Shown here piece by piece: positions 1,054-18,680 of a stretch of 21,452 nucleotides of DNA. This stretch comes from a virus. Each line of letters opens with the position of its first letter. The first letter of the stretch is position 1. The notes under the pieces are model-generated. The model saw only the letters and a list, made by a program, of their open reading frames with translations, was not told the DNA's origin and did not search any database. The DNA lies in the IMG/VR virus record IMGVR_UViG_3300031753_000042, positions 1-21,452 of that record; one strand, given 5' to 3'. The position numbers and the translations under genes were made by a program.

Positions 1054-1911
1054 TCAGGCGCCCTGTCCCGGTCCCCAGTAATTATTCGGCGACACCCCGA
1101 GCGCGCCAGCTCCGCTCGCCCCGAACATCCCGGAGTTGTTGAGTGCCAGCATCAGGGCGGTGTTGGTGCCCGCCCCAGCCAGCGTATTCAGTCCCCCGGT
1201 GATGGCGTTTGCAGAGCCGACGGTGCCAGCGGCCTGGGCGGCTGCTCCGGACGTGAGAAGCTGATTCGCTGCGGTCTGACTTTGAACACCTAATTGACCC
1301 GTCATCGCCCCCGCTGCCTCGCCCGTCCCGGCGAGGTTCTGCAATCCCGTCGCTGCCGTTTGCACTCCTTGCAAAACCTGCCCGTATCTCTGGGTATTCT
1401 CATTGAGCCAATTTTGGAATTGCTGTTGGAAAGTCGTCCCGGCGAGGCCCTCGGCGTATTGAGCTGCGCCCTTGAGGGCCGCACCTGACTGCCCGAGGCC
1501 TTGCGCAGCATAGGAGTTCTGGGTGGCCTGTTCGCCTTGCTGGAGGGCGAACTGATACCCTGGGGTGTTCGACAGCCAACTCTGCATCCCCTGCGGGCTG
1601 CCAAACATCGAGGAGAAGGAGGGGAGCTGGGCCTGCGAGAGCGCCGAATAGGCGGGGCTGGAAAGTCCCCCGCCGAACAGCGCCTCCAACCCGCTCGTCG
1701 CCCCGGCTCCGGCAGTCCGAAAAGGCTCCAGTCCTGCCCTGACGGTATCAAACATCTGCAGCTGCCTCGCGCCAGCCAAATCTGCGGCTTGGGCTTGCGT
1801 GTTGGCGGCCGACTTTGCCGCGCTGCTGCCGATAAGGGCGCTGCCAATCCCGGCCGCTCCCGACAACAACCCACCACCAAGAATCGCCCCAGGGACAGAG
1901 ATTGACGGCAT
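1054..1911 (-). CDS. DNA transfer/ejection-type protein, 285 aa
   Basis: The start chosen is ATG 1909-1911, just after the TAG of the acetyltransferase-like gene (1914-1916), with GGAG about 8 bases upstream. The frame stays open further upstream, but there it overlaps the previous gene. Residues 8-27 are a glycine/alanine-rich hydrophobic stretch (AILGGGLLSGAAGIGSALIG). The middle carries the pattern LSNTPGYQFALQQGEQA followed by GQSGAALKGAAQYAEGLA. This combination is familiar from phage proteins often labelled DNA transfer or ejection proteins in podovirus-like phages. Such proteins are carried in the virion and enter the host envelope with the DNA. The family call is from pattern memory and moderately sure; the exact role is inference. 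Confidence 0.8.
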   Translation of the reverse strand: MPSISVPGAILGGGLLSGAAGIGSALIGSSAAKSAANTQAQAADLAGARQLQMFDTVRAGLEPFRTAGAGATSGLEALFGGGLSSPAYSALSQAQLPSFSSMFGSPQGMQSWLSNTPGYQFALQQGEQATQNSYAAQGLGQSGAALKGAAQYAEGLAGTTFQQQFQNWLNENTQRYGQVLQGVQTAATGLQNLAGTGEAAGAMTGQLGVQSQTAANQLLTSGAAAQAAGTVGSANAITGGLNTLAGAGTNTALMLALNNSGMFGASGAGALGVSPNNYWGPGQGA

Positions 1912-1913
1912 GG

Positions 1914-2384
1914 CTAGGCTCCGATCCAGAGTGAATAAGTCTGCTGTATGGGCTTCGCCCCCCGCCGGCAGAAGAAACGAGATAGCCTCTGCCCTCTCCC
2001 CTGCAGCCGGTGATGGGGGAAGATGCACTGCACGCCCAGAGTGCGCAGATATCGTACGCTATGCTCGAAGAGCTGGAAGGCGGCCTTCGGATATCCAGGC
2101 CGGACGAACCAGGCGCCCTGCTGAGCGATGAGTAGGTTCTTGGCCTCGACATCAAGCGAGATCTGCCAGGTCAGATATCCCACCAGCTTCTCCTCCGCTC
2201 GGGCCGTTAGAATCCTCAGCACTCCACTCTCGCACATCCGCCGCATGGCCTCCTCGTCCAGGCGATAGTATCTCCTCGCTTCCACTCCCCCATCGACCTC
2301 CGCGAAGTGCTCCCGGCCGAGTTCGTCGACCTCCGGCCAAATCGCCCGAAAGGGCTCGACCTGCGTGCTCACAGAGGGAACCAT
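1914..2384 (-). CDS. GNAT-like N-acetyltransferase, 156 aa
   Basis: The start chosen is ATG 2382-2384, two bases after the TGA of the sulfotransferase-like gene (TGAGATG arrangement). The N-terminal part resembles short phage GNAT proteins: a helical start (FRAIWPEVDELGREHF), then a strand pair LRILTAR and LVGYLTWQIS (residues 56-76). A core strand AWFVRPGY (residues 91-98) and a helix (AFQLFEHSVRYLRTLGV) follow. The usual acetyl-CoA pyrophosphate loop R/Q-x-x-G-x-G/A is degenerate here (RPGYPKAA), so catalysis is not certain. The C-terminal part is basic and rich in His/Arg. The acceptor is unknown. Position directly after a sulfotransferase-like gene and before virion genes suggests a co-expressed modifying pair. 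Confidence 0.72.
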   Translation of the reverse strand: MVPSVSTQVEPFRAIWPEVDELGREHFAEVDGGVEARRYYRLDEEAMRRMCESGVLRILTARAEEKLVGYLTWQISLDVEAKNLLIAQQGAWFVRPGYPKAAFQLFEHSVRYLRTLGVQCIFPHHRLQGRGQRLSRFFCRRGAKPIQQTYSLWIGA

Positions 2385-2385
2385 C

Positions 2386-2973
2386 TCAGTTAAGTCCCAA
2401 CCCGGGCGAGCTCGCCAGCAACTCCGCGAGTTCGACCTTGAGAGCCTGCAGCCGGGGGTAATTCTCCCGGAGGCGGTCCAATCGGGCCGGCATATCGATC
2501 TGCACGATCGTCTGCTCCCAGCTCCTCCACCACTGTTCGTCGAATGCCAGCTGAAGGCAATGCGTGAAGAGGCGCTTCGCGACCTCGCCGTCGGAGAGTT
2601 CGTGATAGTCAAAGCGGAGAGTCCCTGGGAGAGTCTCGACAACATCGAGCAATTCGTCTTTGGTCTCCAACTCCCCGGCTGTCGGATAAAGGCCGAACTT
2701 GGCGAGCGACTCGTAGACCTCTCCGATAGGCCGCCTGACAGTCACAAATCGGACTCGAGGGAGGAACTGCTTGATGACCCTCCAACCGAGAACGGCCCCC
2801 GATTCGACTGTCCCGTCGATCCCCCCGCTTCCAAAGGCTCCGAGGAAGTCGGACATCGACTGGCACTCGATCGAGATATCATGCCCGCAGCGCCGAGTTG
2901 AATAGCTAAGGAATCGGGAAAGCCAGGCGGTTCTCGATCTCGGAAGGGCGAAGATGATGAAAGGAGAGATCAT
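2386..2973 (-). CDS. Sulfotransferase-like P-loop protein, 195 aa
   Basis: Residues 5-21 read FIIFALPRSRTAWLSRF, matching the 5'-phosphosulfate-binding loop of sulfotransferases that use PAPS. Residues 76-90 read FVTVRRPIGEVYESL, matching the 3'-phosphate-binding strand and helix with its Arg and Ser (R80/R81, S89). At 195 aa it is shorter than typical cellular sulfotransferases (about 250-300 aa) but looks like a compact form known from phage genomes. The ATG at 2973 overlaps the TGA of the 121-aa gene by four bases (ATGA). No Shine-Dalgarno is visible, so translation is probably coupled. Substrate and activity are unknown; lipid, glycan, virion protein or nucleotide are all possible. A P-loop kinase-like role is the alternative. 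Confidence 0.75.
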   Translation of the reverse strand: MISPFIIFALPRSRTAWLSRFLSYSTRRCGHDISIECQSMSDFLGAFGSGGIDGTVESGAVLGWRVIKQFLPRVRFVTVRRPIGEVYESLAKFGLYPTAGELETKDELLDVVETLPGTLRFDYHELSDGEVAKRLFTHCLQLAFDEQWWRSWEQTIVQIDMPARLDRLRENYPRLQALKVELAELLASSPGLGLN

Positions 2974-3335
2974 GCGTCGGGGAGCCAGGTGATGACGGGG
3001 TTTGGCCCTGTCCAGCTAATCCGAATTTCATCGGCGAAGCGCAGGGGGAATAATCCTCCTGTGGTGCTCACGGTCAAAAACGTCACCCCCTGATCTCTCG
3101 AGATCTGGACAGTCCCTTTGCTCGCCGCCATTGACCCCGCGATCGGCGCGGTGAAGTTGAACGGACTGGCCCCCGGCACCTGCGGCTGCGCCGGAGCACC
3201 AACCGCCAGATCGCTCCCCTGCCAAAGAGCGAGCAAAAATCTCTGCCACTGGTATGTGACATTCCCTGTCGTCAGGTCGACGAAGGGGGAGTTCCACTGC
3301 GGGATGCCAATTTGAGCTACTGGAGTGCTGGCCAT
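2970..3335 (-). CDS. Hypothetical neck/tail-associated protein, 121 aa
   Basis: The frame starts at ATG 3335, after a GAGGAG ribosome binding site that overlaps the stop region of the gp10-like gene. The N-terminal part has the pattern PQWNSPFVDLTTGNVTYQWQRFL, often seen in small phage proteins encoded near tail genes. The C-terminal half is beta-rich (SPFNFTAPIAG, VQISRDQGVTFLTVS, FPLRFADEIRISW), suggesting a small beta-sandwich. There is no signal peptide or catalytic motif. It could be a minor tail or fibre-attachment protein, judging by position between the DNA stabilisation protein and the modifying enzymes. Precise function is unknown. Confidence 0.8.
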   Translation of the reverse strand: MASTPVAQIGIPQWNSPFVDLTTGNVTYQWQRFLLALWQGSDLAVGAPAQPQVPGASPFNFTAPIAGSMAASKGTVQISRDQGVTFLTVSTTGGLFPLRFADEIRISWTGPNPVITWLPDA

Positions 3336-3341
3336 CAGCTG

Positions 3342-4856
3342 TTAGCTCCTCGCCACCTGCACATCGACCCACGCACCATTGAGGGCTGCTGAGCCAGCAA
3401 TCGAATGAGCAAGCTCGATGACGATATCCCTGCCAATGCCGAGAGGCTGCCACAGCGGGCTGGTTAGATACTCCCCCGGGGCGCCAGCAGATTGCAGCAC
3501 ATCATTCCCATAGGTCTTCCCGCGGTCGAGGCTCCATCTCAGATTCACCGTCGCGGGATTGCCAGCAGCATCGAGCGGGGCTTCGCCGACCTCCATATCG
3601 GCGATGAATTTGTTGATCTGCAACCTCTTCCCATCGTTCTCCACCAGTTGCCCGGAGGTCCGATCTGCCCCAGCGGTGATGTGAGGGAAAGTGCGGATGC
3701 AGCTAAGAGGCCCAGGCGTCCCCCCGACAGTTAGAGTGTCGGTGTAGGTGTCGAGGTCGAGGGTGTAGATGGTTCCGTTCTGCCAATCGCCGACGGCGAT
3801 CCCCCCATTTATGTTGGCACAGCAGTTGGTGCGGTCGCGGTGCAGATTGCCGTTGGCGTCAGTCCAAGCGCGTTGGTGCCAGCCATTATGGGGATCTCCA
3901 ATTGATTCGTCCCACACCCAGGTCTGGTCCCCCGCTGGGAAGTTAAAAACTACAAATACATGGCCATCTTGCTGGTAGATATAGGTTATACAGTCGGAAA
4001 TGCCCGAGCTCTTGGCCATTCTGCCAATCGCCAGCTCGAGGGCGTGATTCGAGATCCTCTCCGTCTGATACCCCCTCTGCCGAAAGACAATCCCCTGGCC
4101 TTGCAGGTCCTGCCCCAGCCAGTAGGTGTTAATGTCCGCCGTAGCGACGCTGTAAGGCGCGATACATCCATGCTCGATGTAACTGCCCGGCAGCTCCGCG
4201 AAGGGGAAGTTGGGGTTGCCAGCGTTATACCAGATTTCACTTTTCAAGGCCCCGAGCAGCAGAATCTGATGTCTATTGCAGATCAGCCTCTGCAGTGGAT
4301 CTGGATAATTGTTCTTCGCCGCCGTGTAGAGGGGATTGAAGGTCAGGACGTTATCCAGCGTGCTCCCCCAAATCGGCGTCCCAGGGATGTTCCAGATCAA
4401 AAACCCGTCGATCGTGTCCCAGCCGGTGGCTCCGGTGAAAGTCCCCGTCGGGTCGACGATGACGGAGAAGGCGTTGGTTGCCAGATTAACAGCATAGCCC
4501 GTCGAGCTGTTATCCGCTATCACCATCGTCACGCCATTGTCGGCGAAGCTGACGGGAGTCGACGCCACTTGATTGAGAGCGCCGAGGGAGATTAAATTCC
4601 AATTGGCGTCGATCTGGTAGATTTCTTGGCCGATACAGGCGAAGCTCTTCCCTTGACTGCTTCGATAAAGGCCTCTAACAGTTCCGCTCGCCGTAGCCGC
4701 CTGCGCTCGGGGCACCAGTCCCGGACGTTGATAGAAAGTCACTGGCACTGGGGAGTTCTTCGGGTTGATCTCGGGGTAATAGTTGATGCATCGCATACAG
4801 TTGGCGATTATCGACCGAGAGGTGTAAGCGCCTCCGAGCAGAGGGATTCGAGGCAT
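3342..4856 (-). CDS. P22 gp10-like packaged DNA stabilisation protein, 504 aa
   Basis: The protein resembles the phage stabilisation family that includes P22 gp10 (about 472 aa). It opens with MPRIPLLGGAYTSRS, has a Cys-containing segment NCMRCINYYPEIN, and continues with repeated short beta strands typical of a propeller-like hub. In P22, gp10 docks under gp4 at the portal vertex and helps keep the packaged genome in the head. Here it lies downstream of portal, coat and the gp4-like adaptor, in the expected order. The start is ATG 4856 with a weak GGAC upstream. Family recognition comes from overall sequence style plus gene order and is fairly firm. Confidence 0.85.
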   Translation of the reverse strand: MPRIPLLGGAYTSRSIIANCMRCINYYPEINPKNSPVPVTFYQRPGLVPRAQAATASGTVRGLYRSSQGKSFACIGQEIYQIDANWNLISLGALNQVASTPVSFADNGVTMVIADNSSTGYAVNLATNAFSVIVDPTGTFTGATGWDTIDGFLIWNIPGTPIWGSTLDNVLTFNPLYTAAKNNYPDPLQRLICNRHQILLLGALKSEIWYNAGNPNFPFAELPGSYIEHGCIAPYSVATADINTYWLGQDLQGQGIVFRQRGYQTERISNHALELAIGRMAKSSGISDCITYIYQQDGHVFVVFNFPAGDQTWVWDESIGDPHNGWHQRAWTDANGNLHRDRTNCCANINGGIAVGDWQNGTIYTLDLDTYTDTLTVGGTPGPLSCIRTFPHITAGADRTSGQLVENDGKRLQINKFIADMEVGEAPLDAAGNPATVNLRWSLDRGKTYGNDVLQSAGAPGEYLTSPLWQPLGIGRDIVIELAHSIAGSAALNGAWVDVQVARS

Positions 4857-4882
4857 CAGCCAAGTCCATCAACTTTCGGTCG

Positions 4883-5326
4883 TCACGCCGACGAACTCGC
4901 CTTCCAAATTCCCGCCTTCGCCGAGCTGAAGGTGTAGATCAGCCCGGAGGCGATGGTGACACTCGCCGCCCCTGCCCCTGTCGTCCCGTGATCGATGATC
5001 GTGTCAGCGGTGCCGCCGTTGTCCTGGTTCGCCGGATTCGCCCAGATCTTGATTGTATTCGCGGTGTTGTTGTTGACAGCGACAGATTGGCCTGTATGCG
5101 CCGGGGGGAGGGTTACCGAGTCGGTGCCGCTGCCCGTCGAGGTGTCGATCTGGTTGTCCGAGGCGGTGAGGAGGGGAGAGGTGACGGCGGTGCCACTCAC
5201 CAGCGCCGTGATGCCGCTCGCCCCGCTGGCGAGGATGTTGGTGAGCTGCTGGAGGTCGCCAGCATCAACAAGTCGAAGCCCCGAAGGGAAGAAGCTCTTC
5301 AGCAGCGAGATGACAGAAATGCCCAT
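4883..5326 (-). CDS. Hypothetical virion-type protein, 147 aa
   Basis: The frame starts at ATG 5326 behind a GAAAGGAG ribosome binding site of the same kind as the coat gene. The first 35 residues are mixed helical (SVISLLKSFFPSGLRLVDAGD). The rest is Thr/Ser/Ala/Gly-rich with alternating short strands (SGTDSVTLPP, QSVAVNNNTANTIKIWANP, SVTIASGLIYTFSS), which suggests a beta-rich domain like a decoration or fibre-tip domain. The C-terminus GIWKASSSA recalls the ends of small phage structural proteins. It sits between the gp4-like adaptor and the gp10-like protein. I do not recognise a family, so a structural role is inference. Confidence 0.8.
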   Translation of the reverse strand: MGISVISLLKSFFPSGLRLVDAGDLQQLTNILASGASGITALVSGTAVTSPLLTASDNQIDTSTGSGTDSVTLPPAHTGQSVAVNNNTANTIKIWANPANQDNGGTADTIIDHGTTGAGAASVTIASGLIYTFSSAKAGIWKASSSA

Positions 5327-5356
5327 CTGAGGGCTCCTTTCCAGTTAGTTGCCGAC

Positions 5357-6178
5357 TTAATAGAATCGATCCGAGAAGATGTTGTAGATCCCTCCGCGCT
5401 GGAGAGCGGGATCAGCGGTGAGTTCTGCGATCGCCGTATTCGCCCCTCGCAGGGCGTCGAGGGAGGACTTCGCAATCGACGGGAGCATATCGCCGGGGAA
5501 AGTGCCAATCCCATACTTCGGCCGGAGGCGAATGGCAAGATTCGACACAATTGCCACGTAGTACTCGTATGGCAGGTGAAACTTCGTCGCGACATTTGGG
5601 AAGCTGGAAGGCATCTGCTCTTTGATCACCACGTGGATCGAGTAGATCGACGCCTGCGGAACGGGCCAGGGGTAGAGGTAGCCGAGCGGCCACGCTGGGT
5701 CGTAGAAGATCACTCCCGGGAAGCTGACGAGTCCTTTCAGGGCGATCCGCCCGTAGTCCTCCAGGGAGTGAATCAACTCAAGCGGGTAGTCGATCTGATT
5801 GGGCTGCGATTGTGTCAGCTGGCGCAACCAGGCCGATTCGATCTTATCCGGCCTCTGCGGTCCTCCGCCCTGCGCGACCGCAAATCCCGAGAAATCGTCG
5901 TTGAAGTCCTGGTTAAAGTCTCCCCCGAGTTGGATGTCGGCAGGGGGTGGCCCGATCGAGTACCGCCGGGCGCCCGTGCTAACAATGCTGACAACAATAT
6001 CGTGATAAACCAGCCACCTTCGTCTCTGCCACTCCTGCAGCATCCACTGCAGCCTCGCCCACGCGTCGGTAATATCCTCCGCCGTAGGCGTCTGCCCGAC
6101 CCCAATCGCGGCGCAGTCCTTGAGCGCTGCGATGCAGAGATCGTTGACGGTGGTGGTGTCGGGCAGCAGCTGGGACAT
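5357..6178 (-). CDS. P22 gp4-like head-tail adaptor, 273 aa
   Basis: The N-terminal part (TVNDLCIAALKDCAAIGVGQTPTAED, then ARLQWMLQEWQRRRWLVYH) fits the gp4-like tail accessory family. This family forms a ring below the portal and lets the gp10-like protein bind. A tryptophan/tyrosine/proline-rich segment (GVIFYDPAWPLGYLYPWPVP) and the helix LPYEYYVAIVSNLAIRLRPKYG follow, both typical of the longer members. P22 gp4 itself is about 166 aa, so this is a long form. No muramidase motif is seen in it; peptidoglycan cutting is supplied by the separate gene at 12206-13081. The start is ATG 6178 with AAGG upstream. Gene order supports the call. Confidence 0.8.
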   Translation of the reverse strand: MSQLLPDTTTVNDLCIAALKDCAAIGVGQTPTAEDITDAWARLQWMLQEWQRRRWLVYHDIVVSIVSTGARRYSIGPPPADIQLGGDFNQDFNDDFSGFAVAQGGGPQRPDKIESAWLRQLTQSQPNQIDYPLELIHSLEDYGRIALKGLVSFPGVIFYDPAWPLGYLYPWPVPQASIYSIHVVIKEQMPSSFPNVATKFHLPYEYYVAIVSNLAIRLRPKYGIGTFPGDMLPSIAKSSLDALRGANTAIAELTADPALQRGGIYNIFSDRFY

Positions 6179-6187
6179 CGCCGCGCC

Positions 6188-6670
6188 TTACTTCGCCGCT
6201 TTCGTTGTGGAGATAGAAGGGCCGACAGCTGTGGCTTGGCGACTCACAGCTGTCACCGCCGCCAGCTCGGCCTTCTTCGCCTCGAGCTCCGCCATCAACT
6301 TCGAGATGGTCTCATCCGAGCTCCTCTCCGGGGCCTTACCCGTCCTCGCGCCGATCGCATCCGCCGGATGATCCCACCAGCCCTCTGCGCGGAGTTCTTC
6401 CTCCTCGGCCTTATTCGCCGCGACCTTCCAGATCAACTCCCTCTGCTCTCCAATCCTCTTCGGCCCGAACGGAGTCAAAATCTCCTCCGCTGGAACGGTG
6501 ATCTTCTCCTCCCCCTGGGGGTGAAAGAACATCTTCGGATGCTCGGCCCTCTTGTAGATCGACTGCTTGGTCGTCGGATCGATGGCGTAGCTGTTCGCGG
6601 GGTTGATGTCGAAGTGCCCCGCTGCCTCCATCGCATCGTAGATGGTAAAGCGCTTGTTCTGTCTGGCCAC
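6188..6670 (-). CDS. Hypothetical head/neck protein with PKM module, 160 aa
   Basis: The start is GTG 6668-6670 behind a strong AAAGGGAG site, three bases after the stop of the 53-aa gene. The N-terminus (RFTIYDAMEAAGHFDINPANSYA) is followed by the motif EHPKMFFHPQGEEKITVPAEEI, then a helical part and the motif GWWDHPADAIG. The C-terminal third contains a coiled-coil-like helix (ISKLMAELEAKKAELAAV). The PKM segment and the W-x-HP segment are also found in the 153-aa neighbour at 6837-7298. It lies between coat and adaptor genes, so a small head or head-completion protein is likely. No biochemical function is known to me. Confidence 0.82.
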   Translation of the reverse strand: MARQNKRFTIYDAMEAAGHFDINPANSYAIDPTTKQSIYKRAEHPKMFFHPQGEEKITVPAEEILTPFGPKRIGEQRELIWKVAANKAEEEELRAEGWWDHPADAIGARTGKAPERSSDETISKLMAELEAKKAELAAVTAVSRQATAVGPSISTTKAAK

Positions 6671-6673
6671 CAG

Positions 6674-6835
6674 TTATCTCCCTTTCTTGGGGGGTTTGAC
6701 CTTCTCAGGCAGCCCCTTAATCTTCGGACTGCCCGCTGTGAACTCCTTCCCGACTTTCTTCGGAATGCCGAGGGTCGACTTTCCCTCGGCAGCGGCGCGC
6801 ATCGCGCGATTCTGCGCTTTGCTAACGGGAGGCAC
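6674..6835 (-). CDS. Small basic hypothetical protein, 53 aa
   Basis: A short gene is read from GTG 6833-6835, two bases after the TAG of the 153-aa gene, with GGAG about 9 bases upstream. The frame is open further upstream, but that part is arginine-rich and overlaps the previous gene, so I reject it. The product is lysine-rich with the pattern [28 protein letters not shown] and a [16 protein letters not shown] end. The segment [14 protein letters not shown] recurs in small phage proteins I have seen in structural clusters, where it has no known role. A nucleic-acid or scaffold-binding peptide is possible given the charge. Confidence 0.72.
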
Positions 6836-6836
6836 C

Positions 6837-7298
6837 CTACGATCTCCGACCTGCAGCTGCCGTCGAGGGCTTCGCCAAAGGAGTAGGCGAGGCCTCCGTC
6901 GCCGTCGGCCGCTCGGTCGGATGCTCGAACCACGGTCCCCCATCTTTCTCCGTCGGCGGAGCGTCGAACACCTTCGCCTCGCCGCTGTTCTGGTAGAGCA
7001 TCTTCGGCCACTCTTGCGGGCTACCAGTCATCGTCGATGCCACCCCCTCGGCGAGTTGGAAAGGGAAGCCCTTCGCCGCTAGCTCGTCGATAGCAGCGTG
7101 GGCGGCATCAAGGGCGTTGCCGACCGCTGCTGCCCGCTGATGATCCAGCCCGCAGATCGCCTGCAGCTTCGCCTTGAGTTCCTCGCGGAGCGTCCCGGGA
7201 GTCGTCGACATGCCGAAGGCCGCGGCGAGCTTGTCGACATGATGCTGTGTCAAAGCGGCATGCTTCTTGTCGGAGGTAACTTGATTCGGATCGTCCAT
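6837..7298 (-). CDS. Hypothetical head-associated protein with PKM module, 153 aa
   Basis: The gene starts at ATG 7298 behind an AGAAAGGAC site, directly after the coat gene. The first 90 residues are mainly helical ([32 protein letters not shown] and [22 protein letters not shown], quoted here in parts). Then comes [19 protein letters not shown] followed by [12 protein letters not shown] and a Thr/Pro/Ala-rich tail. The PKM segment matches that of the 160-aa neighbour. Position after the coat protein suggests a head-stabilising, decoration or completion protein. No family with a known activity is recognised. Confidence 0.82.
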
Positions 7299-7326
7299 CT
7301 GAGAAGTCCTTTCTGCTCTTCAGCCG

Positions 7327-8553
7327 TTAAATCGCGTCTGCCACGACAACCGCCCACTCGGGCCTGATCCACAGGAACCCGTAGAGCACGTCGAGGCGGG
7401 TGATCAGCTGGTCAGTCCCGATGAAGTAATCGGTGATCATCCTCATCGACACCCCGTCGAACTCCTCCCGGGCGACTTCATGGACGCCCTGAGGCATCTC
7501 CAGATCGGCGGTGGCGAGGGTGACAGCTTCGGGGGCATAGGCGATATTCTTCCTATACTTTGTCGACGCAGCAAGGCCGTTCGTCGGGTTGACAGCCGCG
7601 CCATTCGCCGGCGAGACGGTGACAGTCTGGTATTGGACTTGGGCACCGCCGACTCCTCCCGGGACAATCGCCGGGTAGATGGGGATCGAGGTCGCGCCAC
7701 TCGCCACCGGGGCGGTGACAGCAAATTGCCTCAGTTCTCCCGTGTCCTGCTTGGTGATCCGGTTGACAGCATTCACGCCCGCGATGGTGATGATATCTCC
7801 CTGGTTGAGGGCCTGCGCCAGCGCGTTGACGGTCAAGTTGAGGCCCGTCTGGTTGGCGCCATTCACCGTCGCGCTGCCCTGCGCCAGCGCACTATTCGTA
7901 TGCGTAATGGCCGTCTGGTCTTTCATCCAGATGAATCCCAGGGCATCATACATCCGCCCGGTGATATACTGGCGTGAAACCTCGCTGGTCGGGTTGAAGA
8001 GGCCCGACAGAGAGCTGACAACTCTCGCCTCCGTCCTGGGCGAGTTGACGATCTTCCGATTCGCAATGGGCGCGGAGTTGAGATCCAAGCTCGCCCCGGC
8101 GTTGAGATACGTCCCCTGGTTCGGGTTGATGATGACGCTCGAGGCGTCCTGATTCGCAACGAAGTTGCAAACCCCTCCTTCGCTCGCCCCCATGATATCC
8201 ACGGCGACCTGGCCTGCCAGGTTGTTCACCATTGGCGCCAGCACGCGCCGAGAGTAATCGTCGAGGGAGAGGGTGCGGTCGGCGGTCGAGTAGGCAACAT
8301 CGACGTGAGCCTGGGTTGCCAGTGTCAAAGTGGTTGACTGCTCCGAGGTGTCCTGCACGGACAGGGCCGGGCCCTTGACAACCGTGAAATCATTCGGCAG
8401 CCTGATCCGCAACGTGCTGCCGATTTTCGCCCCGCTGACAGCAAACGACTCGTCGTATTGCATGTCGACGTTCTGCAAGAAGGCGTTGCTGTTTTTCCAA
8501 AGCCTCACGGCCTCCCGGGTGATCAGGTTGATAGTGAGAAGAGTGTTGGCCAT
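7327..8553 (-). CDS. Major coat protein, P22 coat family, 408 aa
   Basis: The N-terminus (ANTLLTINLITREAVRLWKN, then QYDESFAVSGAKIGSTLRIRLP) closely follows the pattern of the P22 coat protein start. P22 coat is about 430 aa, so length fits. These proteins use the HK97 fold and assemble with scaffold into a procapsid. The gene lies downstream of the scaffold and a 71-aa protein, with the only long spacer of the window (about 150 bp) before it. The start is ATG 8553 with GAAAGGAC at suitable spacing. The middle and C-terminal parts have alternating strands (GDIITIAGVNAVNRITKQDTG, VQYQTVTVSPANG) consistent with coat domains. High confidence. Confidence 0.93.
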   Translation of the reverse strand: MANTLLTINLITREAVRLWKNSNAFLQNVDMQYDESFAVSGAKIGSTLRIRLPNDFTVVKGPALSVQDTSEQSTTLTLATQAHVDVAYSTADRTLSLDDYSRRVLAPMVNNLAGQVAVDIMGASEGGVCNFVANQDASSVIINPNQGTYLNAGASLDLNSAPIANRKIVNSPRTEARVVSSLSGLFNPTSEVSRQYITGRMYDALGFIWMKDQTAITHTNSALAQGSATVNGANQTGLNLTVNALAQALNQGDIITIAGVNAVNRITKQDTGELRQFAVTAPVASGATSIPIYPAIVPGGVGGAQVQYQTVTVSPANGAAVNPTNGLAASTKYRKNIAYAPEAVTLATADLEMPQGVHEVAREEFDGVSMRMITDYFIGTDQLITRLDVLYGFLWIRPEWAVVVADAI

Positions 8554-8649
8554 CTTGGCGTCCTTTCAAATCGCCTCTGGCGGCGACTGTTCAAAACGAG
8601 TTGCCCAAGCTCGTCAAGGGCGACCAGTGCCAGAGAGGGCAAAGGGCTC

Positions 8650-8676
8650 CCAAGCGCGAAAATCGGAGGCGCTTGG
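8650..8676 (-). promoter_or_regulatory. Hairpin in the leader of the coat gene
   Basis: A perfect 8-bp inverted repeat (CCAAGCGC and GCGCTTGG) surrounds an 11-base loop. It lies in the 150-bp spacer between the 71-aa gene and the coat gene, about 100 bases before the coat ATG. There is no U-tract after it, so it is not a standard intrinsic terminator. It could be an mRNA processing, stabilising or attenuating element tuning coat expression; that is inference. Confidence 0.35.
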
Positions 8677-8703
8677 ATCTCCAACAGAGTCGTTAAGCGG
8701 GAC

Positions 8704-8919
8704 TCAGAACCGCATTGCCGAGATAGCACCTTCCAGATTGACAAGCATTGCCTTCACAGTCGCCTCGTCGACTGGCGCAAGGGCATCGCAGTGCATGTTA
8801 TGCTCTGGAGCCCAGAGGACGAACAATTCCTCCCTCCCCAGCTTCCCTCTCCTCGCCTCACACCATTCTGGCAGCGGAATGGGCGACTCGCAGAGAGGGA
8901 GATTCTTCACACTCTCCAT
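8704..8919 (-). CDS. Hypothetical protein, 71 aa, coupled to scaffold
   Basis: The start chosen is ATG 8917-8919, which shares one base with the scaffold stop (TGATG) and has a strong GGGGGAGGTG ribosome binding site inside the scaffold gene. A longer upstream start would overlap scaffold by 58 bases with no better signal. The product (ESVKNLPLCESPIPLPEWCEA and then ELFVLWAPEHNMHCDALAP, given in parts) contains three cysteines and ends in a helical segment. I recognise no family. Tight coupling to scaffold and position before coat suggest a head-assembly partner or a small regulatory protein, but this is only context. Confidence 0.72.
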   Translation of the reverse strand: MESVKNLPLCESPIPLPEWCEARRGKLGREELFVLWAPEHNMHCDALAPVDEATVKAMLVNLEGAISAMRF

Positions 8920-9695
8920 CACCTCCCCCTTGCCTTCCACCTCTCCTGCACTTGCGCTTCCCGCCTTCTCATCCACTCCGCCATCGTCAGCGTCCCCCCG
9001 CGCTCGGGGTCATCGGGCGAGATATCGGTGTGGACAGCCCCCCGCGCGCCAACCGGGGTGATCGGCTTGGGGAGAGGCTTCGGGTCGACGACAGAGGGCT
9101 CGGTTGCTAGCTTGGCGACTTCAACGGCCATCGCCACCGGGCTGAGGGACATAATCCTCGCCGCCTCGTTCAAGTCCCCGCCGAGGCGATGGAGGACTCG
9201 ATGCGCCTGCCCAGTTTGGAGAGCCGCCTGCACCATCGCCACCTGCGCGGCCTGGGAGGTCGGATCCCCGGCAGTCACCAACCGCCGGAGCTCCCCAATC
9301 CGGGCCTCGAAATCGGGGAATTCCGATCGGCCGAGTTTGGCCGCTTGATCGCAATCTGCGTTGAATTTCTGCGTGGCTGCCAGCTCGACAGCTTTTTCGT
9401 TGGCAAGCCTCTCCACGTCCGCCTGCGTCAATCCCGTCGCTTGCTGGGTCGTCGCCTTCGCAGCCTCGAGGGCCTCCTTCGCCGAGTGAAGCTGAGCGGT
9501 GAGTTTGGCAATGCGGTCTTCTCGCCAATCCCGAACTGGGGTAGGCGGCGGAGGGGGAGAAGTCGGGCCAGTTGCGCCGACGATGGGCGCTGCTGCCGAC
9601 GTGCCAGTCGCCCCTTCGACGACCACCGGTTGGGACACTGCCCCTCCCGTCGCCCCTTCGAGGGGCTTGATTTCCTCGATTTTAACCTCGGCCAT
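8919..9695 (-). CDS. Probable scaffolding protein, 258 aa
   Basis: The protein is hydrophilic and helix-rich, with an N-terminal Gly/Pro/Thr/Ala-rich disordered part (to about residue 55, including a run of prolines). A long coiled-coil-like region follows (DRIAKLTAQLHSAKEALEAAKATT, in part), and the C-terminus is very basic (WMRRREAQVQERWKARGR). In P22-like phages scaffold is an elongated helical protein of about 300 aa whose basic C-terminal helix-turn-helix binds the coat. The basic end here fits that. The gene precedes coat as expected. The start is ATG 9695 behind a TAGGAGAGG site. The call rests on features and order, not on a diagnostic motif. Confidence 0.8.
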   Translation of the reverse strand: MAEVKIEEIKPLEGATGGAVSQPVVVEGATGTSAAAPIVGATGPTSPPPPPTPVRDWREDRIAKLTAQLHSAKEALEAAKATTQQATGLTQADVERLANEKAVELAATQKFNADCDQAAKLGRSEFPDFEARIGELRRLVTAGDPTSQAAQVAMVQAALQTGQAHRVLHRLGGDLNEAARIMSLSPVAMAVEVAKLATEPSVVDPKPLPKPITPVGARGAVHTDISPDDPERGGTLTMAEWMRRREAQVQERWKARGR

Positions 9696-9710
9696 TCCGA
9701 GCCTCTCCTA

Positions 9711-10025
9711 TCAGGTCTTCGCCGCCGCAGTCGAAGGCGCCGCTGCTGACGCCACCGCATTCACCGCATCAGTCGAGCTTTGCAGCCCCGCAAGCAGCCC
9801 GTTGATGTTGGCGATCGCCGAGGCGACAACCGGGTCGGAGGCTGCGGGAGTGGCATTAATCCTCGCGATCTCATCGGCGATCGCCTTCTCCAGCCCATCT
9901 ACCTTCCCCGTGAGGGCCACAACGGCTGCTGTCAGATCGTCATCTTGCGCCATGAGTTTCTCCAATTTCTCCAGAATCAAATCCAACTTCGCCGAGGTCG
10001 ACAGCTGCCGGTGGAAGAGGGGCAT
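9711..10025 (-). CDS. Small coiled-coil hypothetical protein, 104 aa
   Basis: The start chosen is ATG 10023-10025 (MPLFHRQLSTSAKLDLILEK), after the TAA of the 119-aa gene and an AAGG about 11 bases upstream. A GTG at 10061 would add 12 residues but lies inside the previous gene. The middle forms heptad-like helices (LDLILEKLEKLMAQDDDLTAAV, in part) followed by VDGLEKAIADEIARIN. The C-terminus is Ala/Ser-rich. It looks like a small oligomeric phage protein. It is placed immediately before scaffold; role unknown. Confidence 0.7.
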   Translation of the reverse strand: MPLFHRQLSTSAKLDLILEKLEKLMAQDDDLTAAVVALTGKVDGLEKAIADEIARINATPAASDPVVASAIANINGLLAGLQSSTDAVNAVASAAAPSTAAAKT

Positions 10026-10038
10026 CCCAGGCGAAGCC

Positions 10039-10398
10039 TTAATTGAGCTTGATATGCCCACCCGCTTTGCGCCCTCTCACCAGCTGGTTGTCGAGCAGCA
10101 AGGCTTCCATGATGCGCTCTTTCGAGGTCTCGTCAATGGGGGTGCGCAACATGCCCACCAAGGTGGCCCGAGCCTCTTCCACCAGAGTCGGCCACATCTT
10201 TTCCACGAACTGATTTTCCAGCTTCTGGAGATCCGCCCCGGGGTTTTTCTTCTTCAGCAGCTCATACCAATCATTCTGCTGCATCGCCCGCTCGAACAAC
10301 TCATGGCCCATCTGCTTCGCTGTATCAGCCACGAGAAAGTGGGCATGGGCGATTCGCTGTCGGCGCTGTTCTTTGGCAATCTTCTTCTCAATGGACAT
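10039..10398 (-). CDS. Hypothetical helical protein, 119 aa
   Basis: The ATG at 10398 overlaps the end of the 603-aa gene by 11 bases and has AAGGGAAAG upstream. The protein is charged and almost entirely helical, with many Lys, Glu, Arg and Gln (KKIAKEQRRQRIAHAHFL; FVEKMWPTLVEEARATLVGM). There are no cysteines, signal peptide or membrane segments. The pattern 'RTPIDETSKERIMEALLLD' near the C-terminus looks like a conserved phage segment, but I cannot name a family. Position between virion enzyme genes and scaffold points to a morphogenesis role. Confidence 0.78.
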   Translation of the reverse strand: MSIEKKIAKEQRRQRIAHAHFLVADTAKQMGHELFERAMQQNDWYELLKKKNPGADLQKLENQFVEKMWPTLVEEARATLVGMLRTPIDETSKERIMEALLLDNQLVRGRKAGGHIKLN

Positions 10399-12199
10399 GA
10401 TTCTTTCCCTTATATCTCCTCAGATCGGAGTGCGAGTACGGTTTGGTGTACAGGTCGGAGGGCATTTTGCTGTCGTCCCGCTCTGCCTCTGTCACATCCA
10501 GATACCGCTCCATCGCTTTCTCGTACTTTTTCCAACTCAGCCCCGCAGCCTCAACCGCTGCCCTCTCCTCCGAGGTCGCCCAATGATGCGCATGCTCGTA
10601 GGTGAGTCCGTGAAGCATCAACTTGTGCTCCACCTGCTCGTGGATTTGCAGGAACTCCGCCGGATCGAAACTCTTCCCCCCGACTCTCATTTTCGAGGGG
10701 ATCCGACGGTCTATGTAGGTCTTGCCGAACGACTCGCTCGCCCCCGCGCCGTAAGGGACATCGTGCGAGCGATCGACAGTCCATTTCGTCGCCTTGGCCT
10801 CCTCGACGAGCCGTTGGATTGCCTCTGGTGGCGGACTCGCCTCGGCACTCGGCGTCACCAGCGCCTTCTCGGTCGACTTCGCCACGTCGCCGTCAGCAGG
10901 GCCTTTCCCCCCTCCCCCTCCGACAAGTCTGTCAATCGGCACCGGACTCTCCGGCCCAAATCCCCCGGGAGGTCTCTCATAACCCGGCCTCGTCCACTGC
11001 GGCACCACATCCTGCGACTCGATCGGGACTTTCACAGTCTTCCAGGGCGGCACGAGCTTGTTCTGGGCTGCTGACTGCTCCAGCCGATTCATCACCGAGT
11101 TGGACTCGTTCTCCCCCGCTGAGAGTTTATAGCCCGTCACGCCGAACTTCTTCATGAAGTCGGAGTATTTATCGAGCGTCGCATTCGCCTCCTGCACCCA
11201 CTTCTGATCCTCAGGCGACAGCTGAAGCATAGATTTCAACCCCGCTGTTTTTGCCTGGACCTGTTGATGCAACGCTATCGCCGCTTCATGCAGCTTCGGA
11301 TCGTAGTACCTATCCGTTGCGCCCTTCCCGAATCCCTCGAAGTCCTGAATCGCATGCTGGACTTCATGAGCCAGCGTCTGCTCGAAGGAGAACGGGTCAC
11401 CGGAGAGGACTTGCTTGCCAACAGTTATCTTCTTATTAACCGGGCTGTAACTCCCCAGCGCTCCCAGCTTCTCTCCGAACTCTACTGGCATCTCCGCGAG
11501 ATGAGGGTAAGCGGCGTAGAGAGCGGGGTGATCCCAGATTTCCCCGAGAGTTCTCGTCGTCCCAGGTCCTGCATCATGCATCGCTTGATAAGCAAAATCC
11601 CCTGCTTGCCTATCTCCCATTGGGCTCTTAACAAGATTCGCCCCCTCGTCCGAGATCTCGAATTTCGGCAGCCCCTCCGGGCCGTAATACCATCCCGTCT
11701 GTCTCCAGGCCCCGACATTTCTCGGGTCGTAGGTCGGGGGCCCAGCAATCCGATTGCGCGTAGCGAGGGCCTCCAGATCGGCGGTCTTCGCCGACCTGCC
11801 GGCGATGATCCCCAGCAAATCATTGGCGGGCACTTCCCCCGCCAGCATCGCCCTCCCAAACCCTCCGGTCATCGCCAGCCCCGCCAGCGAGCTCCCCGCC
11901 TGCTGCTGCTCCTCCGGCGTGAATCCTCTCATCCCCCAGAGAGCCTCTCCCGGCGCTCGCAGCGTTGTGCCGAGCCTCGCCAACCTCTCGCTTCCAATCT
12001 CTCCCCCTCTCCGTAGAACGCCCTGCCAGTACCCCTCCCCCGGAGGAGTTTCTGGAATCGATTGTTGGTGGGTCGCCTGTTGCTGCTGCTCCTGCATCTC
12101 GAGCAGATGATGCTCGTAACGCATGAGGGCTGCCGCAGAGTCCTCGCCTTCGGCCTGGAAAGGATCGAAATCGACGGGAGTGAGGTTCGGCGAGGCCAT
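10388..12199 (-). CDS. Large virion-type protein with HExxH metallopeptidase-like domain, 603 aa
   Basis: Residues 156-300 resemble a large-polyvalent-protein associated domain (LPD23-like): TYDPRNVGAWRQTGW, then FEISDEGANLV, then LAHEVQHAIQDFEGFGKG. H278, E279 and H282 form an HExxH zinc site, and GENES around residues 362-366 could give the third, Glu ligand as in gluzincins. A second module (residues 477-597) contains YGAGASESFGKTYIDRRIP and IHEQVEHKLMLHG, with H520, E521 and H525 (HExxxH) and several nearby His. The N-terminus is Gln-rich and a Gly/Pro-rich linker lies at about 400-435. The neighbour is a muramidase gene. Likely a virion-associated or injected enzyme; the protease activity is inferred. 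Confidence 0.82.
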   Translation of the reverse strand: MASPNLTPVDFDPFQAEGEDSAAALMRYEHHLLEMQEQQQQATHQQSIPETPPGEGYWQGVLRRGGEIGSERLARLGTTLRAPGEALWGMRGFTPEEQQQAGSSLAGLAMTGGFGRAMLAGEVPANDLLGIIAGRSAKTADLEALATRNRIAGPPTYDPRNVGAWRQTGWYYGPEGLPKFEISDEGANLVKSPMGDRQAGDFAYQAMHDAGPGTTRTLGEIWDHPALYAAYPHLAEMPVEFGEKLGALGSYSPVNKKITVGKQVLSGDPFSFEQTLAHEVQHAIQDFEGFGKGATDRYYDPKLHEAAIALHQQVQAKTAGLKSMLQLSPEDQKWVQEANATLDKYSDFMKKFGVTGYKLSAGENESNSVMNRLEQSAAQNKLVPPWKTVKVPIESQDVVPQWTRPGYERPPGGFGPESPVPIDRLVGGGGGKGPADGDVAKSTEKALVTPSAEASPPPEAIQRLVEEAKATKWTVDRSHDVPYGAGASESFGKTYIDRRIPSKMRVGGKSFDPAEFLQIHEQVEHKLMLHGLTYEHAHHWATSEERAAVEAAGLSWKKYEKAMERYLDVTEAERDDSKMPSDLYTKPYSHSDLRRYKGKNHVH

Positions 12200-12205
12200 C
12201 GACTG

Positions 12206-13081
12206 TCAGCCCAGCTTCGGCGCGACCGCAAACGGGTCATATTGAACTGGAGTAAACTTGTGCTGAGGGAAGAGATTCTGCAGCAGCATCAGCGGCAGCA
12301 TCGACGACTGGCCGATGGGCTGGAAAGGGGCAGCCTGAGTGCCTTCGGCGGCCAATGGCGAACCTCCTCCAGCATTCGGCTGCCCCCCAGCCGCTCCCGA
12401 AGGCGCAGCTGAATTCGAAGCCGAGGGAGTTCCCCCTGCCGCGGAGTTCTTCAAACTCGACCACTGATCTCCCAGCGCGCTCCACTGTGTCTTCCCCGCT
12501 CGGACATCCGCCGAGAGATCCCGGTGTGTGTTTTGCCTGTAAGTTGTCTGGGCAAGATCCCACGCCGCAGCATCTTGACTCTCCGGAGAGAAATCTTTCA
12601 GCCCCAGATTCTTTGCTTCGGCATCCCAAGTCCCGGGCTGAAATTGATACCTCCCCGCTGCGTGAGTAGGCGTCCCATCAGGCGTGTGGAAGAGCTGTCG
12701 AGGATGATCCGCGAACGAGCTAAACCGACTCCCCCCATACATCACATTATAGTCCGAGGCTTCGCTCTTTGCGATTCGATTGAGGACGTATTGCCGAACC
12801 GACGCGTCGCTAACAGCCGCTGAGGCTGGATTCGCCGCGACAGTCTGAGCATTCACCGTCGGCTGAGTCGGAAGCCCCGCTCCCGCCGGAACTCTCGAGG
12901 GATTCGCGCGCATATTTGCCGCTTGCTGAGGAGTCCGCCCGAGGGCGTCGACATTTCCCCCAACCAGAGGATTCGGCGAAGGCCCGACGACCGCCTTCGG
13001 CGCGAGAAAGGCCCGCAGGGCTGGGTCGTTGGCGTCCGCTGGCAGCAGCGGATTCCCAGAGAGATCATCGAGATCAGGCAT
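12206..13081 (-). CDS. Virion-associated muramidase, lambda R-like (GH104) domain, 291 aa
   Basis: Residues 96-195 match the pattern of lambda endolysin R, a peptidoglycan transglycosylase. They show AKSEASDYN with likely catalytic Glu107, YGGSRFSSFADHPRQL, AAGRYQFQPGTWD and LGLKDFSPESQDAAAWDL; lambda R reads SEGTD, DYSDHPRKL, GAGRYQLL and LGLKDFSPKSQDAVAL at the same places. The domain has long disordered flanks: about 90 residues at the N-terminus and a Ser/Gly/Pro/Ala-rich C-terminus. These flanks and the position right after portal (8-base overlap) argue for a virion protein that opens the wall during DNA entry, not the lysis endolysin, which is at 19634-20152. The start is ATG 13081. Confidence 0.88.
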   Translation of the reverse strand: MPDLDDLSGNPLLPADANDPALRAFLAPKAVVGPSPNPLVGGNVDALGRTPQQAANMRANPSRVPAGAGLPTQPTVNAQTVAANPASAAVSDASVRQYVLNRIAKSEASDYNVMYGGSRFSSFADHPRQLFHTPDGTPTHAAGRYQFQPGTWDAEAKNLGLKDFSPESQDAAAWDLAQTTYRQNTHRDLSADVRAGKTQWSALGDQWSSLKNSAAGGTPSASNSAAPSGAAGGQPNAGGGSPLAAEGTQAAPFQPIGQSSMLPLMLLQNLFPQHKFTPVQYDPFAVAPKLG

Positions 13082-17910: not shown

Positions 17911-18444
17911 CTACGCTAATCGCCTCGATAGAAGCTCGTCAACCGCCAATACCTTCGGGCGTCGCAAAGGTGGGCGCGAGGGCCTCGCCCTAACTCCACT
18001 CCCCAACCAATGCCACACCGATTGCTCATAAACCGAGGCATGATAAATCATATCCTCGATCGAGGTCGACCTGGGGTGAAGCGTGTAAGGCGTCAGCACC
18101 TTGCAAACAACCACCCCTCTAACTTCCTTCCTCGTCACCTCCCCGACCACCGGCAGGTAGAGGTCTCGGAGTTCTCGATGGGCATCCATCGTCCAAGTGT
18201 ATTTCGCCTCCAGACAGATCAGAAGATCCCCATCGGGCAGCAGCAAGTCGACCTGACAATATCCCAGCCCGCTTGAATCCTCGAACTCAAACCACTGCCC
18301 ATATGAAGCGTGAGGCAAGAAAGCCGCCAGCTGCCGCTCGTAAGCCACTCCCTTTCCCTTCGCTCCTCTCGCCCTCCCCTGCGGGATACAAGGGGGCCTC
18401 TCACACATCCTCGCCCATCTCAGCCCCCTCACAACTCGCTTCAT
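17911..18444 (-). CDS. PD-(D/E)xK nuclease-like protein, 177 aa
   Basis: The start chosen is ATG 18442-18444, overlapping the upstream stop as ATGA and preceded by GAGG; longer starts (ATG 18477, TTG 18510) overlap the upstream gene more and have weaker sites. Using this start, E36 (in GVAYERQL), D66 (in CQVDLLLP) and E79-A-K81 (in ICLEAKYT) make an E...D-x12-E-x-K pattern of the restriction-endonuclease-like fold. The strand-loop-strand spacing fits, with a conserved-looking SGLGYCQVD turn. The C-terminus is Arg/Pro-rich. It could be a DNA repair, resolvase-type or host-DNA nuclease. Activity is inferred from motif only. Confidence 0.75.
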   Translation of the reverse strand: MKRVVRGLRWARMCERPPCIPQGRARGAKGKGVAYERQLAAFLPHASYGQWFEFEDSSGLGYCQVDLLLPDGDLLICLEAKYTWTMDAHRELRDLYLPVVGEVTRKEVRGVVVCKVLTPYTLHPRSTSIEDMIYHASVYEQSVWHWLGSGVRARPSRPPLRRPKVLAVDELLSRRLA

Positions 18445-18680
18445 CTCAGCCTCGGAAACGACAGCCCGCCGAGGCATCCCAGCAGGTCGAAGATCAGATA
18501 AATCACGCAAATGACGATGAAGGCCCAGAGGATAATATTCAAGACCGCCGGGATGATACCCAGATTAACACCCAGCTGGGAAATCACCCATGGAATCAGC
18601 AATCGAAGGATGGCAATCACCGCGCAGACAATCACCAACCAAACCAGCAGCGCCTCAAACCACCCGAGATTAAAGCACAT
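18441..18680 (-). CDS. Small membrane protein, 79 aa
   Basis: The start chosen is ATG 18678-18680, with an excellent GGGGAGGAGGAAAAG ribosome binding site. The longer frame upstream begins with an Arg/Trp-rich stretch that is the purine-rich end of the previous gene read in another frame. The protein has two hydrophobic helices, about residues 8-33 (FEALLVWLVIVCAVIAILRLL) and 42-70 (PAVLNIILWAFIVICVIYLI), quoted in parts. It has a short basic C-terminus (FPRLR). It belongs to a kind of small phage membrane protein often found near endolysins. A holin or antiholin role is possible. Confidence 0.78.
   Translation of the reverse strand: MCFNLGWFEALLVWLVIVCAVIAILRLLIPWVISQLGVNLGIIPAVLNIILWAFIVICVIYLIFDLLGCLGGLSFPRLR

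Follow-up and report, generated by a model that had tools for sequence, protein, structure and literature searches.

What does a sulfotransferase-like gene do among the tail and DNA-ejection genes of a phage? The gene in question, termed ST here, lies in a linear viral record 21,452 bases long, the whole of which was analysed and is called the window below. Judged by its gene content, the window is a fragment of a P22-like podovirus; its portal protein belongs to the P22 portal family of Pfam (PF16510, E 7.5e-136), PHROG matches identify a major head protein (phrog_283) and the large subunit of terminase, and the structural genes lie on the minus strand. The window holds further proteins of note at some distance from ST. 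A 603-aa protein with a zinc-peptidase-like motif, HEVQHAIQ, is encoded between the coat and portal genes (10388-12199, minus strand) and matches very large phage proteins (phrog_13543 and phrog_21376). Next to the portal gene, a 291-aa protein (12206-13081, minus strand) has matches of the lysozyme, endolysin and metallo-endopeptidase types (phrog_17230, phrog_90 and phrog_28672). Finally, a 199-aa protein without a PHROG match (17911-18510, minus strand) contains a segment, VDLLLPDG...CLEAKYTW, that resembles the core of PD-(D/E)xK-type nucleases.

The original prediction placed ST, with a PAPS-type loop and a matching 3′-phosphate segment, within the tail/ejection cluster, and this location holds: the gene and both segments are where they were said to be (Table 1), with the Hc3 gene (phrog_578) on one side and the gene of the DNA ejection protein (phrog_598) on the other. 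The translational coupling that had been claimed is borne out by the junction sequence as well, since the stop and start codons overlap as ATGA and no Shine-Dalgarno is evident in ACCTGGCTCCCCGACGC, the bases upstream of the ST start. The partner in this overlap had been described as a neck/tail gene. It does encode a tail-cluster protein, but not a recognised neck protein, Hc3 being located one gene earlier.

Table 1. Positions of ST, its motifs and its neighbours in the window, and of hydroxylase-like ORFs in relatives.
Feature	Position	Strand	Basis
Head-closure Hc3 / P22 gp10-like protein	3342..4856	-	phrog_578, E 6.4e-87
Small tail-cluster protein, 121 aa, before ST	2970..3335	-	N-terminal region recurs at the same place in relatives
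ATGA stop/start overlap of ST with the preceding gene	2970..2973	-	sequence
Sulfotransferase-like gene (ST), 195 aa, ATG start	2386..2973	-	ORF; AlphaFold2 model; PDB sulfotransferase matches; conserved family
Predicted 5′-phosphosulfate loop LPRSRTAWL, residues 10-18	2920..2946	-	P11, R12, S13, R14 and W17 invariant in 77/77
Predicted 3′-phosphate-binding segment R81-P-I-G-E-V-Y-E-S89	2707..2733	-	R81 and S89 invariant in 77/77; HMM alignment with SgdX2, Schistosoma and Cpz8 sulfotransferases
GNAT-like acetyltransferase partner, 156 aa	1914..2384	-	junction sequence; alignment with C-terminal half of fused ST-GNAT proteins; GNAT fold/Pfam of fused relatives
DNA ejection protein, directly downstream of the GNAT gene	1054..1911	-	phrog_598, E 7.8e-21; start at ATG 1911 inferred
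Hydroxylase-like ORFs in relatives	L033:7732-8325, L025:3694-4317, L053:4015-4884, L072:7729-8280, L254:1763-2404, L081:5318-6001, L026:5783-6073		

Several observations indicate that ST is a real gene. Residues 8-18 of its product read FALPRSRTAWL and residues 79-90 read VRRPIGEVYESL; this motif pair appeared in none of 300,000 residue shuffles and in none of 3,194 other ORFs of at least 150 aa. Loci fetched through the neighbouring Hc3 protein, a procedure that made no reference to ST, carried relatives of ST (phmmer 7e-48 to 1e-12) in the same slot. Between relatives with at least 80% amino-acid identity, dN/dS ranges from 0.03 to 0.27 (values from divergent pairs were discarded, their synonymous sites being saturated), and the gene is therefore under purifying selection. 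A scan of viral contigs with ST as a single sequence found no relatives, whereas the scan with the Hc3 protein and the scans with alignments did yield them.

The AlphaFold2 model of the window ST was built on an alignment of 69 sequences (pLDDT 94.8, pTM 0.91). All 11 Foldseek matches against the PDB at E<0.001 are sulfotransferases, comprising tick and human tyrosylprotein sulfotransferases (TPSTs) and Cpz8. The best match in the VIA comparison is TPST1 (Z 11.2 over 161 residues, rmsd 3.3, 14% identity), and the top 13 rows are all sulfotransferases, many of them PAP-bound; Cpz8 with PAP gives Z 10.2 and SgdX2 gives Z 9.6. These VIA matches cover model residues 1-170, the C-terminal helix beyond being barely tested. 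P-loop kinases follow closely at Z 9-9.7, and ST could in principle be a P-loop kinase of the gluconate or nucleoside kinase type. So modest a Z margin is to be expected between members of one P-loop superfamily, and the sequence motifs decide for a sulfotransferase. The Walker A motif GxxxxGK[ST] is absent, LPRSRTAW standing as the loop, and the R81/S89 signature for the 3′-phosphate is present; together with the uninterrupted run of sulfotransferases at the top of both structural comparisons, this makes a kinase very improbable indeed.

At the sequence level, the window ST protein alone matches no Pfam family, and phmmer against PDB sequences returned noise only. Among 77 ST relatives, Sulfotransfer_3 is matched by 21 and Sulfotransfer_4 by 14 at E<=0.01, and a distant phage relative (L007) lies above the Pfam cut-off for Sulfotransfer_4. 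The profile of the ST family finds SgdX2 among PDB sequences (E 1.2e-4, in the G54-S89 region) and, weakly, Schistosoma sulfotransferases. The predicted fold, both PAP(S) motifs and the Pfam links of the relatives agree, and the sulfotransferase-like character predicted for the protein is well supported. The structure prediction and comparison that had been proposed for this gene returned a sulfotransferase fold with the pocket motifs in it, rather than a fold without the PAPS pocket.

TPSTs are eukaryotic Golgi enzymes, with which we take the phage protein to share the PRS-type 5′-phosphosulfate loop and the R...S pair for the 3′-phosphate. Although TPST1 and TPST2 (PDB 5wrj, 5wri, 3ap3 and 8w5z) provide the best fold match, ST is shorter and only distantly similar in sequence, and tyrosine sulfation is not implied by the similarity of fold. 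Closer in size are the small bacterial sulfotransferases, namely Cpz8 (9kf1/9kf2), SgdX2 (8y9p) and the Pfam families Sulfotransfer_3 and Sulfotransfer_4. Different from ST, Cpz8 (from caprazamycin biosynthesis, according to its PDB title) and SgdX2 are stand-alone bacterial enzymes, neither phage-encoded nor linked to a GNAT.

The original prediction described a single enzyme and overlooked the gene that follows. One base past the stop codon of ST, the ATG of the GNAT-like gene follows at 2384; a longer ORF starting at 2645 is unlikely, as this start falls inside ST. The GNAT protein of the window aligns with the C-terminal half of proteins that join ST and GNAT in one chain. Of 93 distinct contigs carrying an ST of the tail-cluster family (two scans combined, with the window, L076 and L091 included), 46 have ST and GNAT as one fused ORF and 39 as adjacent genes; a further four contigs are cut off by the contig end, and four have no GNAT match, namely L124, L154 and the T7-like L121 and L123, in which ST is present and GNAT undetected. 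Fused ST-GNAT proteins are absent from the cultured phages of INPHARED that were searched. Four fused-type relatives (L247, L248, L253 and L255) have IMG identifiers resembling those of isolate genomes, not metagenomes. The model of the fused relative L081 has a pLDDT of 94.8, and its second half resembles GNAT structures in the PDB; another fused relative, L095, lies above the Pfam GNAT cut-off. For the window GNAT itself, the Pfam GNAT match is no better than E 0.22, and where its relatives have PGLGxK as the acetyl-CoA pyrophosphate loop (general pattern Q/RxxGxG/A), it has PKAAF. Because of this weaker loop, an acetyltransferase activity of the window GNAT is less certain than the predicted activity of ST. 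The coupled or fused GNAT turns the one-enzyme picture into a two-enzyme one, and ST is one half of an ST-GNAT module.

Is the cofactor pocket of ST conserved as in a working enzyme? The first alignment-based scan of viral contigs had the P-loop as its pattern, which makes P-loop conservation in that set circular, and it was not used as evidence. In the scan that replaced it, the bait was a pair of alignments restricted to the GNAT half (some of the contigs overlap earlier sets), and an ST domain was present in 100 of 101 loci, the exception, L257, being cut by the contig end. Throughout the 77 distinct ST sequences of this GNAT-baited set, P11, R12, S13, R14, H31, G54, E57, W17, R81, S89, N156 and Q158 never vary, and position 32 always holds D or E; the window protein departs at one of the invariant positions, with I156 instead of N. 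A separate alignment of 77 rows, which includes distant siphophages, has R12, S13, W17, H31, R81 and L126 invariant, and R12, S13, W17, H31, R81 and S89 are retained in the siphophage relatives at 18-27% identity. The loop of the window protein, PRSRTAWL, fits the pattern P[KR]SxTxx[LW], and the Arg and Ser for the 3′-phosphate, R81 and S89, are about 8 residues apart. The invariance of the pocket residues in a set that was gathered without ST as bait argues for a working PAPS site, in which H31, D32 or E57 would be the likeliest acid-base catalysts.

P22-like relatives have the gene order Hc3, small tail-cluster protein, ST, GNAT and DNA ejection protein, and among the 93 contigs Hc3 is upstream in 70 and a homologue of the phrog_598 DNA ejection protein is downstream in 62. 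In T7-like relatives (L139, L121, L101 and L123), the gene downstream encodes the internal virion protein phrog_418. Homologues of gp13 (phrog_308) and of the gp11 type (phrog_394, judged from position and size) lie upstream in both L139 and L121, and L139 has a gp12-type tail protein (phrog_376) there as well; in these two loci (about 1300-12570), the ST or ST-GNAT gene lies between the gp13 and gp14 homologues. L105 has yet another type of ejection protein downstream, from a third family (phrog_4287). The module usually sits just upstream of the first DNA-ejection or internal-virion gene, in P22-like and T7-like phages alike. The GNAT half was also considered as a form of T7 gp13 (Phage_T7_Gp13, phrog_308), and this was rejected, with an hhalign probability of 0.5% and a separate gp13 homologue beside ST-GNAT.

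Such a position would also suit a pair of pseudoenzymes, resident in the virion or acting as scaffolds, whose folds would bind nucleotide or protein partners during assembly of the ejectosome and catalyse nothing. The gene adjoins those of internal virion proteins, the slot is almost that of T7 gp13, which Pfam describes as a probable scaffold, and the GNAT loop of the window is degenerate. However, unlike in typical pseudoenzymes, the cofactor-pocket residues of ST are all invariant over the 77 distinct sequences, and gp13 is a separate gene with no detectable kinship to the GNAT half. We consider a non-catalytic role improbable.

ORFs resembling aspartyl/asparaginyl- or proline-hydroxylases of the 2OG-Fe(II) type are sometimes found in or beside the ST/GNAT slot (Table 1); five of the eight records tested are above the cut-off of PF05118, and a proline hydroxylase of the PDB is matched at E 1.4e-7. 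In the cultured Pseudomonas phage PfAn1, the phrog_598 ejection protein is likewise immediately preceded by a hydroxylase homologue and an acetyltransferase. The PfAn1 pair resembles that of the window in its slot and in its GNAT, the two GNATs being homologous (25.6%), but an AspH-like hydroxylase homologue replaces the sulfotransferase. The fixed position across tail types, together with the company of other types of protein-modifying enzymes, points to ejection or tail proteins as the acceptor. Where the original prediction left open whether a protein of the virion or a molecule of the host surface is modified, the conservation of the slot before the ejection genes favours the virion as the target, a position being no proof of the acceptor. 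On this sequence and model evidence, we put at about even chances that a PAPS-dependent ST and the adjacent GNAT make up a late, cassette-like modification module of podovirus-type phages, which would most likely act on the phage's own ejection or tail proteins.

The main competing possibility is that the module has a host target late in infection, namely a surface glycan or LPS that it would sulfate and acetylate, for example against adsorption of the progeny to debris or against competitors. Glycans or lipids are frequent acceptors of bacterial sulfotransferases, and alphaproteobacteria are known for sulfated surface glycans. Three of the four matches in genome assemblies are in alphaproteobacterial bins, a weak host assignment given the few metagenome bins, and there is a weak match (E 0.49) between the family's P-loop/HD segment and a NodH entry named LPS sulfotransferase. 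A system of this kind would more naturally have receptor or lysogenic-conversion genes for neighbours, whereas the actual position is tied to the ejection genes of P22-like and T7-like phages, and hydroxylase-like partners suit protein substrates better. We therefore hold a glycan acceptor to be rather unlikely.

Distant relatives of ST raise the question whether the acceptor could be small molecules or bases, as in a metabolic or a DNA- or nucleotide-modification system. The family phrog_10855, annotated as 'hydrolase' (Abidjanvirus, Pamexvirus, Epaquintavirus and relatives, Casjensviridae), is the same family as ST, at 18-30% identity, and has the same invariant residues, and its phiH1 member is annotated 'similar to sulfotransferase'. 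Unlike the phage of the window, those with phrog_10855 are siphophages, in which the gene is in non-structural regions with no GNAT neighbour annotated. Among the distant siphophage relatives, that of Sanovirus has NADAR, a P-loop kinase and a gene with a MazG-like annotation for neighbours. Iyer et al. (2013) reportedly wrote on DNA base modification. That study is cited for phage sulfotransferase and sulfation systems in PMC10829341. In the lineage of the window, by contrast, the neighbours are structural and not modification genes, and genes for PAPS supply or reduction are rare (APS kinase in 1 of 25 contigs, PAPS reductase in 2 of 25). A small-molecule or base acceptor is, to our mind, decidedly improbable for the window lineage. 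As a separate observation, the distant ST relative of Stenotrophomonas phage Bhz60 (L007:2980-4743) adjoins NADAR and a P-loop kinase that has an APS-kinase-like match, and a gene with a MazG-like annotation is not far away; this cluster may be one of nucleotide or DNA modification. With so few genes for APS kinase and PAPS reductase in the 25 contigs, a production of PAPS by the phages themselves is not supported.

Sulfotransferase genes have been annotated in phages as auxiliary genes with a role stated to be unclear (PMC10580990). A phage GNAT encoded beside structural genes has a precedent in Rac (Gp28) of phiKMV-like phages, which is needed for cleavage of the host RNAP alpha subunit (PMC7552054). 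Rac differs from the window GNAT in that it is upstream of the first structural gene, has no sulfotransferase partner and acts on the host (PMC7552054). In the open-licence papers searched we found no biochemistry of a phage sulfotransferase, no sulfotransferase beside internal virion proteins and no ST-GNAT fusion before ejection genes. Phage sulfotransferase genes are already known by annotation; what is new is the coupling or fusion to a GNAT and the slot before the ejection genes.

Returning to the late module acting on the phage's own virion proteins, we infer its PAPS-dependent sulfuryl transfer, its acetyl transfer, its acceptor and its benefit alike, and the following course may be envisaged. 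Since phage-borne genes for PAPS supply are rare, PAPS of the host would be used; it would bind in the ST pocket through the PRSR loop and R81/S89. ST would then pass the sulfuryl group to the acceptor, with H31, D32 or E57 possibly serving in acid-base catalysis, and the GNAT half would use acetyl-CoA. The acceptors would be products of the same operon, that is, the ejection (internal virion) or tail proteins of the phage, and the benefit might be, for example, a tuned assembly, interaction or stability of the ejection proteins. More tentatively, and at somewhat less than even chances, we suggest that in many uncultured phages of the P22-like and T7-like types the ejection proteins are the targets of a dedicated cassette encoded by the phage, being sulfated, acetylated and at times hydroxylated by it; the DNA-injection machine of a phage would then be subject to enzymatic post-translational modification.

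Whatever the acceptor, one phage ST family is tied to a precise place and a fixed enzyme partner, as a single fused protein in about half of the cases, and the ST-GNAT slot spans at least two podoviral tail architectures. Should the acceptor be a host glycan, the module would instead be a late-expressed system for modifying the cell surface. If ejection or tail proteins are modified, phages would be seen to furnish their injection machinery in a new manner, and the family would be a source of compact, soluble sulfotransferases.
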